A stretch of DNA of 20,596 nucleotides from a virus. The notes under the pieces are model-generated. The model did not search any database. It saw only the letters and a program-made list of their open reading frames with translations, and was not told the DNA's origin. Of the stretch, positions 3,878 to 18,635 are shown piece by piece (the first letter of the stretch is position 1; each line of letters starts with the position of its first letter). The stretch lies in IMG/VR virus record IMGVR_UViG_3300009000_000054, positions 1-20,596 of that record; one strand, written 5' to 3'. The translations under genes and the position numbers were made by a program.

Positions 3878-4468
3878 ATGAAACCAAAAGACAGACCACA
3901 TTATGTAAACAACAAAGAGTTTTCTCTAGCTGTTGTTAAGCACTGCGAGAAGGTTCAAGCTGCAAAGAAAAACAATAGAGAGATTCCTATTGTTCCCAAC
4001 TATATCGCAGAGTGCTTTCTCAAGATCGCTGAGGGTCTCTCCCATAAGTCCAACTTCGTTCGCTACACTTATCGTGAAGAGATGGTGATGGACGCTGTAG
4101 AGAACTGCCTCAAAGCCATTGAGAATTATAACATAGAAGCAGCGACTCGTACAGGGACTCCTAATGCGTTTGCTTACTTCACTCAAATTTCTTGGTATGC
4201 TTTTCTTCGTCGCATCAACCGTGAGAAGAAGCAGCAAGACATTCGTTTGAAGTATATTGCAGAAGCTGGCATTGAACAGCACATTGAGACTGGTGATGAA
4301 GATGCTGACTGGAGCAATGTGGTTCCTTTGGTTGAAGTTCTCAAGTATCGTATTGATGTGGTGAAAGAAGCTGACGAACACTTCAAAGAATATGCGAAAG
4401 AAGAACGAAAGCGCCGCCGGCGTACTGTCAAGGCTGATTCTGATCTCTCTGATTTCTTGGTAGACTAA
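3878..4468 (+). CDS. gp55: late sigma factor gp55
   Basis: gp55 is the small phage sigma factor that directs host RNA polymerase to TATAAATA late promoters, with the sliding clamp and gp33 as co-activators. The 196-residue product (T4: 185) has the sigma region 2-like helices seen in the family: YREEMVMDAVENCLKAIENYN (about 66-86) and PNAFAYFTQISWYAFLRRINREKKQQ (about 95-120). These correspond to the polymerase-binding and -10-recognition helices. A basic cluster ERKRRRR lies near the C-terminus. ATG 3878 follows GAGAGTG. It is first in the operon behind a consensus early promoter. It fits with the TATAAATA box found upstream of gp3 in this window. Confidence 0.92.
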   Translation: MKPKDRPHYVNNKEFSLAVVKHCEKVQAAKKNNREIPIVPNYIAECFLKIAEGLSHKSNFVRYTYREEMVMDAVENCLKAIENYNIEAATRTGTPNAFAYFTQISWYAFLRRINREKKQQDIRLKYIAEAGIEQHIETGDEDADWSNVVPLVEVLKYRIDVVKEADEHFKEYAKEERKRRRRTVKADSDLSDFLVD

Positions 4469-10077: not shown

Positions 10078-10755
10078 ATGGAATTATCTGATCGTACTAT
10101 GCAAGTTCTCAAGAACTATGCAGCAATCAACCCTAACATTGTGATCTCTCAGGGTAAAGAACTGAAGACAGTCTCTGTGGCTCGGACTGTTTTTTCTAAG
10201 ACGACTCTTGATGAAGAGTTTCCGTCTGGGTTTGGTATCTATGATCTTAATGAGTTTCTCAATGTACTCAATCTGGTTGATCGTCCCAATCTGAAGTTTG
10301 ATAAGGATTATGTTGTCGTGGGTGATGCAACGGGTCGTTCTAAGGTCAAGTATTTCTTCTCTGACCCTGAAATGCTGACCTCCCCTAGCAAAGACATCGT
10401 AATGCCTGAGTGCGAAGTTAACTTCGTGCTAGATACTCGTACACTGAGTTCGCTGAAGAGTGCTGCTGCTGCCCTAGGGCACAGTGAGATTTCTATCACT
10501 CCAGCAAATGGTGCTGTCTGCCTCTCTGTGCTTGATAGCAAAGATGCAACCTCTAATGTGTTCTCGGTGGATGTAGATGGTTCATATGAGGAAGGTGTTA
10601 ATTTCAACTTCGTTCTGAATGTGAACAATCTCAAGATTGTGAATGAAGACTTTGATGTAGGTATTTCATCTCGTTTGATTTCTCAATTCAAGAGCAAGCA
10701 GTCTGATATTGAATACTTCATTGCACTAGAAAAAACGTCAACTTACGGAGAGTAA
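10078..10755 (+). CDS. gp45: DNA polymerase sliding clamp gp45
   Basis: gp45 forms the trimeric ring that tethers gp43 polymerase to DNA and also activates late transcription with gp55. The 225-residue product (T4 228) keeps the clamp pattern: LSDRTMQVLKNYAAINPNIV at the N-terminus (T4 LSKDTTALLKNFATINSGI), FGIYDLNEFLNVLNLVD (T4 VAIYDLNGFLGILSLVN) and near the end NFNFVLNVNNLKI (T4 FNFIINMANMKM) and YFIALEKTSTYGE (T4 VVALEADSTHDF). It has its own consensus promoter. gp44 lies some 3.3 kb downstream because of an inserted accessory block. Confidence 0.95.
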   Translation: MELSDRTMQVLKNYAAINPNIVISQGKELKTVSVARTVFSKTTLDEEFPSGFGIYDLNEFLNVLNLVDRPNLKFDKDYVVVGDATGRSKVKYFFSDPEMLTSPSKDIVMPECEVNFVLDTRTLSSLKSAAAALGHSEISITPANGAVCLSVLDSKDATSNVFSVDVDGSYEEGVNFNFVLNVNNLKIVNEDFDVGISSRLISQFKSKQSDIEYFIALEKTSTYGE

Positions 10756-15504: not shown

Positions 15505-15925
15505 ATGGAATAAAGCCCATATGGAGGCTGCTGAGATTTACGCTCAGCTATCTTCTGCAAAGAGACTTCAAGTGGGCTGTGTGATTGCAAAAGACAATCG
15601 CATCATCAGCATCGGTTACAACGGCATGCCTTCTGGTTGGGATAACTGCTGTGAGCATCTAGACTACTTAGACGGCAAGTTGACTACTAAGCGAGAAGTT
15701 CTGCATGCTGAGACAAATGCAATTGCTAAGCTGGCGCAAAGCACTGAGAGTGGCAAAGATGCAGAACTCTATGTGACTGTCTCTCCATGTATTGAGTGTG
15801 CTAAGCTTATTCATCAGGTAGGTATTTCTAAAGTCTTTTACAAGTATGAGTATCGCAACTGCAGCGGACTTGATTTTTTATCGCAGTGTGATATAATTGT
15901 AAGGCAGATTTCTGATGAAAGTTAG
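15491..15925 (+). CDS. deoxycytidylate (dCMP) deaminase
   Basis: A 144-residue zinc-dependent deaminase that converts dCMP to dUMP, feeding dTTP synthesis. Zinc/catalytic motifs are HAETNAI (H72, E74) and PCIEC (C100, C103), with GCVIAKDNRI and GYNGMPSGWDN typical of the dCMP deaminase family (T4 cd type). The length is standard for a bacterial/phage enzyme without extra domains. It overlaps the MazG-like gene by 14 bp and the next gene by 11 bp. Together with the MazG-like gene it forms a small nucleotide-metabolism pair inserted between gp44 and gp62. Confidence 0.92.
   Translation: MKLTKWNKAHMEAAEIYAQLSSAKRLQVGCVIAKDNRIISIGYNGMPSGWDNCCEHLDYLDGKLTTKREVLHAETNAIAKLAQSTESGKDAELYVTVSPCIECAKLIHQVGISKVFYKYEYRNCSGLDFLSQCDIIVRQISDES
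15870..15897 (+). promoter_or_regulatory. intragenic extended -10 promoter
   Basis: TTGATT 15870-15875, a 16-bp spacer, and TATAAT 15892-15897 with TGA just before it (extended -10). It lies inside the dCMP deaminase 3' end, just upstream of the oxygenase-gp62-regA run; the predicted start is about 15904. Confidence 0.6.
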
Positions 15926-16415
15926 GGTCAATGACTATCCCTGGAAGCATTGGATAGTTGATGATTTTTTAGATGAGAATACTTTTCAACTGATTAAAGA
16001 CAGTATTGTCTCTTTTCCAAAAGCAGAAGAAAACTCTAGAGTAAACTTCTTCTTTCGTGATCGTGGCTATCACACTATTCATAATATTCTGAGAGAGAAT
16101 TTTTTAGAGTTTACAAAGACTCTGGGTGAAGACTTCACTAACACCACTGTGGGTGTTGAGTACATGAATGTAGGTAAGGGATTTAATTATGAAACACATT
16201 GCGATTCAAGTTGTAAGATATTCACGATTGTTCTTTATATTTCTGATCGTGGTAATGGTACAAAATTATATTCAAGCAAAGAAGTTTTTGAAAATGAAGT
16301 TGAGTGGAAACCAAACAGAGCAGTAGGCTTCTATAGGTCAGACAACTCCTGGCACTCTTACTATTCTGATATAAATGATAGAACTACAGTGAATATATTT
16401 GCGGATAAATTATGA
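15915..16415 (+). CDS. 2-oxoglutarate/Fe(II)-dependent oxygenase-like protein
   Basis: A 166-residue double-stranded beta-helix protein of the prolyl-hydroxylase-like class, common in cyanophages. Iron ligands are H95-x-D97 (in YETHCDS) and H147 (SWHSYYSD), with R156 (DRTTVNIF) as the probable 2-oxoglutarate salt-bridge residue. The core strands FTIVLYISD, GTKLYSS and NRAVGFYRSDNSWH follow the usual order. The substrate is unknown. Its stop overlaps the gp62 start (ATGA 16412-16415), so it is co-translated with the clamp loader subunit. Confidence 0.85.
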   Translation: MKVRVNDYPWKHWIVDDFLDENTFQLIKDSIVSFPKAEENSRVNFFFRDRGYHTIHNILRENFLEFTKTLGEDFTNTTVGVEYMNVGKGFNYETHCDSSCKIFTIVLYISDRGNGTKLYSSKEVFENEVEWKPNRAVGFYRSDNSWHSYYSDINDRTTVNIFADKL

Positions 16416-16789
16416 GCCCATTTGACTTTCTGAATGCAATTAATGACACTAAAAAAGATTTGATGCAAGACCCTGATAACGAAAAGAAGTATGTGCCCTT
16501 TGTGGTCAATCGCAGTCTTTCATATTTTTCTGATACGATTCATGTCGCAAATGCTATGAATCAGTATCATCACCTTGACAATAAGTTACAATTCCAATTT
16601 CTTATAAATATCGTTAGGAAGCGTAAACGCTTCTCTAAGTGGATGAAGCCCACTGAGATAGATGATATGGAAGCAGTGAAAGAGTATTATGGGTATAGTA
16701 ATGAAAAAGCCCGCCAAGTAATCCCTCTTCTCTCTTCTGACCAACTAACAATTATAAGAAATAAGGTGAGCAAAGGTGGAAGAAAATAA
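16412..16789 (+). CDS. gp62: clamp loader small subunit gp62
   Basis: gp62 is the single non-ATPase subunit of the gp44/62 clamp loader. The 125-residue product starts MSPFDFLNAINDTKKDLM and contains VPFVVNRSLSYFSDT, MNQYHHLDNKLQFQFLIN and KRKRFSKWMK. I recognise this as the short cyanophage-type gp62; T4 gp62 is longer (187). The assignment is supported by its place immediately before regA. It overlaps regA by 14 bp if regA begins at the GTG at 16776. Confidence 0.9.
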   Translation: MSPFDFLNAINDTKKDLMQDPDNEKKYVPFVVNRSLSYFSDTIHVANAMNQYHHLDNKLQFQFLINIVRKRKRFSKWMKPTEIDDMEAVKEYYGYSNEKARQVIPLLSSDQLTIIRNKVSKGGRK

Positions 16790-17186
16790 CATCGTCGAAT
16801 GGTCCCCAGCTAAGATGCTGGAAGTTACTCTGGCAGAACCAGATGACTTTTTGAAAGTAAGAGAAACTCTGACTCGCATTGGAGTTGCTTCTCGTAAAGA
16901 AAAGAAGTTGTTTCAGTCTTGCCATATTCTGCACAAGCAGGGTCGATACTTTATCGTGCATTTCAAAGAGTTATTTCTGTTAGACGGTAAAAAGTCTAAT
17001 CTGGAATTGTCTGATATTCAACGTAGAAATACAATTGCAACACTGTTAAGTGATTGGGGTCTAGTTGAAATTCAGAACAAAGAAGTTTCTCAAGATCAGG
17101 CGCCGATGCGTCAAGTCAAGATTATTGGCTATAAAGAAAAGGATGAATGGGAACTCTGCCCCAAATACAATATTGGAAATAAGTGA
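16776..17186 (+). CDS. regA: RegA translational repressor
   Basis: RegA binds ribosome-binding sites of early phage mRNAs and blocks initiation, including its own. The core matches T4 RegA closely: DDFLKVRETLTRIGVAS (T4 EDFLKVKETLTRMGIA), YQSCHIL-like FQSCHILHKQGRYFIVHFKE and WELCPKYNIGN at the end (T4 WKLVPKYTIGN). The GTG at 16776 has AAGGTGAG upstream and gives 136 residues. ATG 16815 aligns with the T4 N-terminus and would give 123 residues (T4 122) but has no clear ribosome site, so the start is uncertain. Confidence 0.93.
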   Translation: MEENNIVEWSPAKMLEVTLAEPDDFLKVRETLTRIGVASRKEKKLFQSCHILHKQGRYFIVHFKELFLLDGKKSNLELSDIQRRNTIATLLSDWGLVEIQNKEVSQDQAPMRQVKIIGYKEKDEWELCPKYNIGNK

Positions 17187-17716
17187 TGCTGAATATTTTT
17201 AAAGGAAAAGACGATTACATTGCTGATCGTCGACCTTTTTTTGGTAAACTACCTTTTCCTATTAGCGATCAATATAATTGGGATAGCCATATTTATTTAA
17301 TGGATTCTCATCCAGAAGACGCTACTAGAGAAAAGAACGATAAGATGAAAGTCGAGCTTAATTCTTTTCATAGCAGACCGTCTGCACCTCAGTTTGCCAA
17401 AGATATTGAGCAAGAGATGCAAGACACTTTTTCTTTGCACGGAAATAAAATCACGAACATTGCTTTTGCTGGGTTTGGTAGAGAGAGCGGAAGTTACCCA
17501 TGGCATAAAGACAGCATGGATGTTTTTCTTGTCCAGGTTCTGGGTCAGATTCGTTTTAGGCTAGAGGGCTTCAATAACGATGAGCCTATCTGGTTCAACC
17601 CCGGTGACTATGTGTGGATTCCTAGACAGACGCATCATCAGATTCTTCCTCACCATTCAAGAGTTACATTCTCATTTGGTGTCGAAGGCGATCCTGACCC
17701 GTCTATCTACTTCTAA
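17186..17716 (+). CDS. cupin/JmjC-like protein
   Basis: A 176-residue protein with a double-stranded beta-helix core: SGSYPWHKDSMDVFLVQVLG, FRLEGFNNDEPIWFNPGDYV and WIPRQTHHQILPHH. A HxD pair (H107, D109) and a distal H150/H151 could bind Fe(II), as in JmjC-type hydroxylases acting on ribosomal proteins (ROXY-like) or cupins. The 'NPGDYVWIP...HH' turn is typical of this group. ATG 17186 overlaps the regA stop (TGATG); a GTG at 17183 is an alternative. Substrate is unknown. The stop overlaps that of the convergent gene. Confidence 0.75.
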   Translation: MLNIFKGKDDYIADRRPFFGKLPFPISDQYNWDSHIYLMDSHPEDATREKNDKMKVELNSFHSRPSAPQFAKDIEQEMQDTFSLHGNKITNIAFAGFGRESGSYPWHKDSMDVFLVQVLGQIRFRLEGFNNDEPIWFNPGDYVWIPRQTHHQILPHHSRVTFSFGVEGDPDPSIYF

Positions 17717-18036
17717 GCAGGTCTTGAAACGATAACAATATCACCTTCAACCCCGGTGATTGTAAGAGACGTTCCATCTAGAGGACCAAAAACTTTACCT
17801 GAAGTTAAAGATTGACCAGAGAATCCTCCTCCAGAAACAGAGCCTCCGGAGCCTGAAATATAACTGCCGACAGCCGCAGAATCATAAGTGTATTCGCCAC
17901 CAGCGTCACCAAATTCAGAGAAAAGAACTGAGATAAAACCTGTAGATGCCCATTTCATTTTATCTGATGCTGAATCGTATATCAGTGCGTCGCCATCAGA
18001 AGGTGTGCTAGTTGTATCATATGTAATTGTAGCCAT
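17713..18036 (-). CDS. Gly/Ser-rich fibre-like virion protein (reverse strand)
   Basis: A 107-residue protein, the only reverse-strand gene in the window. The N-terminus (TITYDTTSTPSDGDALIYDS ASDKMKW) resembles the 'DG..L.YDS.S.KW' repeats of phage tail-fibre/appendage proteins. The middle is Gly/Ser-rich (SGSGGSVSGGGFSGQS) and the end is beta-rich (LTITGVEGDIVIVSRP). ATG at 18036 (reading left) with AGGA 18050-18047 upstream is preferred over TTG 18042. Its stop overlaps that of the convergent cupin-like gene by four bases. A virion role is inferred from composition only. Confidence 0.7.
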   Translation of the reverse strand: MATITYDTTSTPSDGDALIYDSASDKMKWASTGFISVLFSEFGDAGGEYTYDSAAVGSYISGSGGSVSGGGFSGQSLTSGKVFGPLDGTSLTITGVEGDIVIVSRPA

Positions 18037-18064
18037 TGACAAAAGATCCTAAAAAGTGTATAAT
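18036..18064 (+). promoter_or_regulatory. sigma-70-type promoter for hsp20
   Basis: TTGACA 18036-18041 and TATAAT 18059-18064 are perfect consensus with a 17-bp spacer. The -35 box overlaps the start codon region of the divergent reverse-strand gene. The predicted start is near 18071, the first base of a 20-bp palindrome. Confidence 0.9.
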
Positions 18065-18070
18065 ACCCTC

Positions 18071-18090
18071 GTTTATTTAGCTAAATAAAC
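18071..18090. repeat. 20-bp perfect palindrome at the hsp20 transcription start
   Basis: GTTTATTTAGCTAAATAAAC is a perfect palindrome located 7 bp after the -10 box, between two divergent genes. In RNA it makes an 8-bp stem with an AGCU loop at the very 5' end of the hsp20 mRNA. As DNA it could be an operator. Each strand reads CTAAATA, a near match to the late-promoter TATAAATA. Confidence 0.85.
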
Positions 18091-18091
18091 A

Positions 18092-18113
18092 TGGACGCAG
18101 CCTAGCTGGTCCA
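18092..18113 (+). repeat. second hairpin of hsp20 leader
   Basis: TGGAC-g-CAG (18092-18100) pairs with CTG-GTCCA (18106-18113) as an 8-bp stem with one bulged G97 and a CCTAG loop. CTTTTAA follows, so weak termination is conceivable, but its place between two other leader stem-loops suggests a structural role. Confidence 0.6.
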
Positions 18114-18119
18114 CTTTTA

Positions 18120-18147
18120 ATCTTGCTTAACTTAAGGAGATACAATC
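18120..18147 (+). promoter_or_regulatory. ROSE-like RNA thermometer candidate covering the hsp20 Shine-Dalgarno
   Basis: In the RNA, AUCUUGCUUA (18120-18129) can pair with UAAGGAGAU (18133-18141), closing on a 3-nt loop ACU. The pairs are A120-U141, U121-A140, C122-G139, U123-A138, U124-G137, C126-G136, U127-A135, U128-A134 and A129-U133, with G125 bulged. This hides the whole AAGGAG ribosome site (18134-18139). The UUGCU strand with a bulged G opposite AGGA is the hallmark of ROSE thermometers, which control small heat-shock genes. ATG follows at 18148. The pairing was made by hand; activity is inferred. Confidence 0.6.
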
Positions 18148-18576
18148 ATGACTAACCATGATCTTTTGCCCTTTGCTGGGGCACTTCCCCGCCTCGTTGG
18201 TTTTGAGAACCTGCTTCGTGATATGGAACTACTTAGCAAACCCTCTAACCAACAAAACTACCCTCCGCACAATCTAGTCAAGTACGACGAGTACACCTAT
18301 CAACTAGAGTTTGCACTGGCGGGTTTTGAGAAAGACGAGTTGAAGGTTGAGCATCACGGCACTGACCTCCACATTTCTGGTGAGCAGTCCCCTCGTGATG
18401 ACGAACCCTGTGAGTTTCTTCACAAGGGCATTTCTACTAAGAAGTTCCGTAAGTCCTTCAAAGTCAATGAGCATGTGACTGTCGTTAGTTCGTCCTATAC
18501 GAACGGCATCCTATATGTACTACTGAAGGTTGAACTTCCTGAAGAGAAGAAACCTAAGATCGTCCCGATTCAGTAA
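18148..18576 (+). CDS. hsp20: small heat-shock protein Hsp20
   Basis: A 142-residue ATP-independent holdase chaperone of the alpha-crystallin/IbpA family, probably protecting phage or host proteins during infection. The core domain (about 42-130) shows YDEYTYQLEFALAGFEKDEL (family 'Y.i...laGf.ke.i'), VEHHGTDLHISGEQ, EFLHKGISTKKFRKSFKVNE (matching IbpA 'YLHrGIa.R.FerkF.LAd') and SYTNGILYVLLKVELPEE (matching the 'NGLL.I.l.reiPE' strand). It ends with a C-terminal PKIVPIQ (I-x-I-like tail motif). It has its own promoter and structured leader and a terminator behind it. Hsp20 genes are frequent in cyanophage-type T4 relatives. Confidence 0.95.
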   Translation: MTNHDLLPFAGALPRLVGFENLLRDMELLSKPSNQQNYPPHNLVKYDEYTYQLEFALAGFEKDELKVEHHGTDLHISGEQSPRDDEPCEFLHKGISTKKFRKSFKVNEHVTVVSSSYTNGILYVLLKVELPEEKKPKIVPIQ

Positions 18577-18584
18577 TGGATCAT

Positions 18585-18616
18585 GGTGCCCCTCCGGGGG
18601 CACCTATTGACTTTTC
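18585..18616 (+). terminator. terminator after hsp20
   Basis: GGTGCCCC (18585-18592) and GGGGCACC (18597-18604) form a perfect 8-bp stem with a TCCG loop, 8 bp after the hsp20 stop. The T-tract is poor (TATTGACTTTT) because it doubles as the -35 box of the gp43 promoter, so termination may be partial. Confidence 0.75.
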
Positions 18617-18635
18617 GTGATGAGCCATGTATAAT
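18607..18635 (+). promoter_or_regulatory. promoter for gp43
   Basis: TTGACT 18607-18612 and TATAAT 18630-18635 have a 17-bp spacer. It starts immediately after the hsp20 terminator stem; TGGAG at 18652-18656 is the gp43 ribosome site. RegA normally represses polymerase genes at the ribosome site, but no specific RegA target can be proven here. Confidence 0.85.

Follow-up and report, generated by a model that had tools for sequence, protein, structure and literature searches.

The late promoter of phage T4 (the gp55/gp33/gp45 system) has the consensus TATAAATA, an octamer described as lying at -13 to -6 relative to the transcription start, +1 (PMC1524935). In the Aeromonas phage Aeh1, the late consensus is reported to have a/gC instead of TA at -13/-12 (PMC2988020, PMC1524935). 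Overlapping early and late promoters are described to yield 'middle' expression in RB49 and S-PM2 (PMC2984593). Our literature search, with subscription papers and preprints mostly outside its reach, found no description of two-way late promoters, including in the available part of PMC2988020. As for RNA thermometers in phages, a 2024 paper, according to its available text, treated the blyA element as only the second phage-encoded thermometer and added one on a sigma-70 gene (PMC11182007). The paper on phage Melnitz mentions hsp20 and riboswitches, and the word 'thermometer' does not occur in the available part of its text (PMC9004378). The literature search, within the same reach, found neither ROSE elements nor hsp20 thermometers in phages.

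In the present study, we analyzed a fragmentary virus record of 20,596 bases (the window) in which an initial annotation had pointed out a perfect 20-bp palindrome between hsp20 and a divergent gene. We confirmed that the palindrome is a genuine element. It is most likely a compact two-way T4-type late promoter, a prediction from sequence that we consider somewhat better than an even bet.

The palindrome and its neighborhood

The gene order of the window is that of a T4-like marine phage, with family matches (Pfam/PHROG) for the end of gene 23, the tail tube, a regA-type repressor, hsp20, and gene 43. No named phage matched the window in DNA similarity; by the clamp-loader protein, the nearest named genome is Phage C48C1 (75% identity), which has a similar gene order. 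The late sigma factor, the processivity factor, and the late promoter regulator are annotated in C48C1. As to gp55, gp45, and gp33 in the window, the ORFs at 3878-4468 and 10078-10755 stand in the same order as in C48C1 (compared by order only), and the place of gp33 in C48C1 falls outside the stretch corresponding to the window. Near regA, two proteins resembling 2-oxoglutarate-type oxygenases are encoded at 15915-16415 and 17183-17716; the product of the latter matches JmjC_2, while that of the former was judged by eye, its single PHROG match being a marginal one to endonuclease V. The features around the palindrome are as follows.

17713-18036, minus strand: divergent gene, 107 amino acids, tail/fibre-like by composition only (ORF)
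18036-18064, plus strand: consensus sigma-70 (early) promoter for hsp20, TTGACA-N17-TATAAT, 12/12 match
18071-18090, both strands: perfect 20-bp palindrome GTTTATTTAGCTAAATAAAC, an exact dyad with two versions in relatives; proposed two-way late promoter
18148-18576, plus strand: hsp20, small heat-shock protein, 142 amino acids (Pfam PF00011, E 7e-16; PHROG 432)
18585-18604, plus strand: terminator-like hairpin after hsp20 (promoter/terminator scan)

The strong terminator-like hairpin after hsp20 is directly followed, within 18585-18635, by an 11/12 sigma-70 promoter ahead of gene 43.

GTTTATTTAGCTAAATAAAC lies where it was initially annotated and is perfect and spacer-free, with arms of 10 + 10 bases; it is the longest such palindrome of the window, the next longest having 7-bp arms. 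When the 111-bp gap (18037-18147) was dinucleotide-shuffled 20,000 times, a perfect 20-bp palindrome arose in 8 of the shuffles; for the whole window, 5 of 300 shuffles contained one. These rates bear out the earlier remark that it is improbable by chance. A terminator scan found no terminator at the site, and that reading was set aside. In the 20,596-base record, itself a fragment, GTTTATTTAGCTAAATAAAC has no second copy even when three mismatches are allowed, and CTAAATAAAC does not recur at one mismatch, yet the half-site is shared with relatives as a proposed late promoter. The absence of other copies, which the initial annotation would have counted towards a refutation, is thus too strict a standard.

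From the 12/12 promoter at 18036-18064, the expected +1 of hsp20 is about 18071, the first base of the palindrome, in agreement with the start proposed earlier. We collected related hsp20 loci by protein similarity (65 loci, of which the 16 close ones are L002-L017). The TTGACA and TATAAT hexamers are unchanged in L002-L005. The GC-centred palindrome of the window is shared by L002 and L003. L004 and L005 have GTTTATTTATATAAATAAAC instead, which is also perfect and reads exactly TATAAATA on both strands; neither record (20,906 and 4,057 bases, respectively) contains TATAAATA anywhere else. A scan of viral_contigs with GTTTATTTANNTAAATAAAC (a 20-mer with a free centre) gave five stretches, four at the hsp20 locus and one, L389, with a TA-centred 20-mer between terminase-like and tail-sheath-like genes (names by eye), before the sheath-like gene. 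L389 has no divergent gene at the 20-mer; thus, the dyad need not imply two-way use. Only two versions of the dyad, with GC or TA at the centre, are known from the five hsp20-locus contigs, including the window. Outside L389, the full 20-mer was found only beside the divergent gene or its remnant (all four hsp20-locus stretches and the window).

The divergent gene encodes 238 and 235 amino acids in L004 and L005, 107 in the window, and a 22-amino-acid remnant in L002, where the gene is nearly lost and the palindrome is intact; in this stepwise shrinkage among close relatives, the C-terminal part is kept. Between L004 and L005, the gene differs at 93 synonymous and 58 nonsynonymous codons, which indicates a real gene under purifying selection. 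Its AGGA Shine-Dalgarno sequence lies 10 nt before the ATG, and the start is 32 nt downstream of the putative late +1 at 18068. A sigma-70 scan found no promoter-like site upstream of the gene on its strand; the nearest minus-strand site, at 17957-17985, is inside the gene. No Pfam match was obtained for the protein, and the one PHROG match, to a minor tail protein, is very weak (E 0.037); the longer L004 and L005 versions had no PHROG match. When the divergent gene was used as a query, the sole hit was the contig of L003. Of the earlier label 'fibre-like gene', the gene itself therefore stands on the codon differences (93 vs 58), while a fibre or tail nature is merely suggested by the weak match.

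The ROSE-like leader of hsp20

Downstream of the palindrome, the hsp20 leader contains the following elements.

18089-18153, plus strand: candidate ROSE-like RNA thermometer (Rfam ROSE_3, 25.9 bits, E 0.0021)
18092-18113, plus strand: hairpin I, with a single bulged G (G18097) on the 5' side (predicted fold; ROSE_3 match)
18120-18141, plus strand: Shine-Dalgarno hairpin, with TTGCT at 18123-18127 and AAGGAG at 18134-18139 (predicted fold; kept in aligned relatives)

The score of the window leader is below the ROSE_3 gathering threshold of 43 bits. In its predicted fold, UUGCU is opposite the Shine-Dalgarno site in the last hairpin, and a stable bulged-G hairpin is present upstream, as in the ROSE_3 model. 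Among 20 loci searched with Rfam, none reached the gathering threshold; at a permissive threshold, ROSE_3 was found in 3 of 16 sources, namely Melnitz (L391, 34.1 bits), L365 (34.1 bits), and L327 (24.0 bits). In ViennaRNA calculations, the unpaired probability of AAGGAG was 0.01 at 5 C and 0.12 at 42 C, an increase that is only suggestive of a rise in translation with heat.

A scan of viral_contigs with CTTGCTTAAN{0,4}AAGGAG gave at least 120 loci and at least 124 matches. Among the 124 matches listed, 110 had an ORF of more than 40 amino acids starting within 22 nt downstream, and these ORFs were hsp20-like in 97 of the 110 and DnaK in 7; the 6 others were, by eye, one truncated hsp20 and ORFs that are phasin-like or without an assigned identity. 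These loci were chosen on the Shine-Dalgarno-hairpin motif, so that only hairpin I, the promoter spacing, and the gene identity are independent of the choice. Of 84 hsp20 leaders (at most 75% identical, among the matches listed), 63 fold into a hairpin with 8 or more pairs and a single-base bulge on the 5' side, as do 107 of 1,680 shuffles. The bulged base is G in 61 of the 63, and the outer stem shows all Watson-Crick pair types in these leaders; as the stem pairs by construction, what counts as evidence is the constancy of the bulged G, the variety of pair types, and the comparison with shuffles. RNAalifold predicted no base pair from a heavily gapped MAFFT alignment of 64 leaders. This alignment was too gapped, and covariation was therefore counted on individually folded hairpins; a covariance model (R1) built from it was sequence-only and was dropped.

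In loci chosen by protein only, UYGCU was present in 24 of 31 non-redundant hsp20 leaders vs 3 of 121 control leaders, and both leader features were present in 17 of the 31 vs 0 of 121 leaders of other genes. UYGCU is at the right place in 10 of the 11 named phages checked (Melnitz, HTVC008M, Mosig, S-CAM7, S-SZBM1, S-CRM01, P-RSM4, HTVC103P, S-RIM44, and C48C1), Paride being the exception. The ROSE-like leader is common in marine phages. In the phage contigs L277, L358, L368, and L380, dnaK is followed by hsp20, each gene with a separate ROSE-like leader. Phasin-like small genes (L378, L379, L271, and L384; by eye) likewise have the motif.

A putative two-way late promoter and its alternatives

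The palindrome can be read as two octamers.

18074-18081, minus strand: GCTAAATA, putative late promoter reading leftward into the divergent gene (predicted late +1 at 18068)
18080-18087, plus strand: GCTAAATA (-13 to -6), putative late promoter reading rightward into hsp20 (predicted late +1 at G18093)

Two gp55-type -10 octamers would thus stand back to back, overlapping at their -13/-12 bases, and a self-complementary central dinucleotide (GC in the window, TA in L004 and L005) would serve both directions. The two centres correspond to the two published consensus types, both of which are self-complementary, as a shared two-way element needs. The palindrome of the window does not contain an exact TATAAATA; both of its strands read GCTAAATA and match the Aeh1 variant only. 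An octamer of the TATAAATA kind is at a place consistent with -13 to -6, exact in L004 and L005 and Aeh1-type in the window. The rightward octamer is 4 nt from hairpin I in the window, within the usual range, and this spacing and the -13 to -6 rule place the putative late +1, 18093, at the base of hairpin I. What the analysis shows is the sequences, how they are conserved and spaced, and how the RNA is predicted to fold; that the promoters are active, where and when both transcripts start, and that the leader responds to temperature are inferred. The sigma-70 promoter, with its start at the first base of the palindrome, would supply hsp20 transcripts until the late phase begins. Rightward late transcription from 18093 would then produce an hsp20 message headed by the two-hairpin ROSE-like leader hiding the Shine-Dalgarno site, and leftward late transcription from 18068 would read the divergent gene, crossing the hsp20 early promoter.

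Among the matches listed, 44 of 83 distinct leaders have NATAAATA at -3 to +14 nt from hairpin I, most often 3-5 nt; 10 have TATAAT near hairpin I and 29 have neither. In control windows, NATAAATA occurred in 1 of 220, of which 110 were only about half as long, being cut short where the leader sequence ended. It was present in 9 of 31 hsp20 leaders vs 1 of 121 leaders of other genes, the hsp20 loci being chosen by protein similarity. In the complete C48C1 genome (coding fraction 96%), TATAAATA occurs 25 times, with at least 5 bases outside coding DNA in 16 cases and within 110 nt of a same-strand start in 19; the other NNTAAATA octamers each have at most 4 occurrences in non-coding DNA and at most 3 near a start. 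C48C1 has two GCTAAATA, neither in non-coding DNA. In the window, the tail-tube gene has TATAAATA at 481-488, so GC is not the general consensus of this phage. A second TATAAATA of the window, at 16603, was taken as coding and set aside; relatives vary in its first two bases (AC, CC, AA). Among the matches listed, NNTAAATA lies near the hairpin in 45 leaders, and its -12 base is A in 43 of them, C in 1, and G in 1. GC at -13/-12 is rare among relatives, and the GC form may be weak.

In L007-L017 (11 loci), the divergent gene and the mirror half are both absent, and TATAAATA stands at the aligned place before the hairpin, preceded by a TTGACA-like hexamer (TTGACT in L010) and a 17-nt spacer. 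The divergent gene is likewise absent from L006, where this place holds only a degenerate TATAAGTA. The alignment with L007-L017 indicates that the rightward half is a late-type -10 common to relatives and that the leftward half accompanies the divergent gene. Palindromic late promoters are not general: a mirror (palindromic TATTTA) extension was found at 4 of 298 distinct TATAAATA contexts (0.62 expected), all four being the two strands of L004 and L005, and the idea of a common habit was rejected. The loci for these 298 contexts were chosen independently of the palindrome, with at least 120 stretches from the TTTAGCTAAATAAA scan left out. In C48C1 (OQ984149.1, 117582-117606; the L187/L199 region), a convergent pair of TATAAATA lies between divergent genes whose starts are at 117569 (minus strand) and 117625 (plus strand); two late transcripts from this pair would overlap.

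The rightward half alone may be the late promoter, of hsp20, with the mirror half arisen by local inverted duplication or chance and not driving the divergent gene. Late promoters do not require bases beyond the octamer on each side, and the dyad, which reaches 3 bp past the octamers on either side, goes beyond what they explain; the one-way late promoter of L389 has a TA-centred 20-mer, and the palindrome of L002 outlives the divergent gene. However, every other full 20-mer (4/4 and the window) adjoins the divergent gene or its remnant, and this gene is under purifying selection, has a Shine-Dalgarno sequence 10 nt before its ATG, and has no alternative promoter-like site upstream in the sigma-70 scan. 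We regard one-way use as unlikely. Chance alone, leaving the palindrome functionless, is extremely improbable: the gap is AT-rich and the whole-window shuffles gave 5/300, but the gap shuffles gave 8/20,000, and the perfect dyad is kept in five contigs with two different centres.

Of the three roles in the initial annotation, the two-way late promoter gained support from the exact TATAAATA on both strands in relatives, the agreement of GCTAAATA with the Aeh1 consensus, and the usual hairpin spacing; the other two fared less well. An operator at which a dimeric repressor shuts off the early hsp20 promoter would suit a perfect dyad over +1 to +20 of a consensus promoter, symmetric in both versions. 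This role found no positive support, as the window has no second site with up to three mismatches, the directly adjoining genes include no recognized regulator, and the late-promoter octamers already explain the sequence; we consider it very unlikely. A 5'-terminal hairpin stabilizing the early hsp20 transcript would agree with +1 at about 18071 and with a predicted 8-bp hairpin with an AGCU loop, of about -4.6 kcal/mol (the difference of two leader folds), and is possible for the early transcript only. Against it, the GC and TA versions differ solely in the loop, so that stem covariation is absent (the centre change, once considered as such, was dropped), the palindrome is missing in the 11 relatives without the divergent gene, and the stronger conserved hairpin I is directly downstream. 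Such a hairpin is also very unlikely as the role of the palindrome.

Comparison with known systems

A late promoter read both ways off a shared dyad would be an economical regulatory design; as a type, it would be an unusual arrangement of a known kind. The larger point is the leaders: cultured phages of Synechococcus, Prochlorococcus, Pelagibacter, and Methylophilales have ROSE-like ones ahead of hsp20. Should heat act on these leaders, the development of the phages would be coupled directly to the temperature of the sea surface. We give about equal odds for and against the broader proposal that T4-like phages (Kyanoviridae and related) carry widespread unannotated ROSE-type thermometers on late-promoter-driven hsp20 and dnaK messages, that temperature gates the chaperone supply at virion assembly, and that the late promoter here has been mirrored into a palindrome also driving the divergent gene.

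Like the T4 late promoter, the palindrome has the -13 to -6 octamer, which L004 and L005 carry in exact form on either strand; unlike it, two octamers are fused head-to-head into a perfect palindrome, and GC replaces TA in the window. The Aeh1 late promoter, (a/g)CTAAATA, is matched by GCTAAATA on both strands of the window, whereas the tail-tube gene of the window has TATAAATA. As with the overlapping promoters of RB49 and S-PM2, hsp20 has a sigma-70 promoter and a late-type promoter; in the window, however, these are about 22 bp apart, and in L007-L017 they are fused in one -10 (TTGACA...TATAAATA).

The leader resembles ROSE thermometers (ROSE_3, RF02523; for Pseudomonas ibpA, see the available text of PMC3669281) in that a small heat-shock gene is preceded by two hairpins, the Shine-Dalgarno site lies opposite U(U/C)GCU, and hairpin I has the bulged G of the ROSE_3 model. 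Unlike them, the candidates here are in phage genomes, follow a putative phage late promoter, also precede dnaK, and score below the gathering threshold. They share a position on phage mRNA with the thermometers described for lambda cIII, SPbeta blyA, and a Caudoviricetes sigma-70 gene (PMC11182007, PMC4166951). The lambda cIII element is reported to work in the opposite sense, with the ribosome binding site open below 37 C, and the Caudoviricetes sigma-70 thermometer is described as a fourU element (PMC11182007), unlike the present ROSE-like candidates on chaperone genes.
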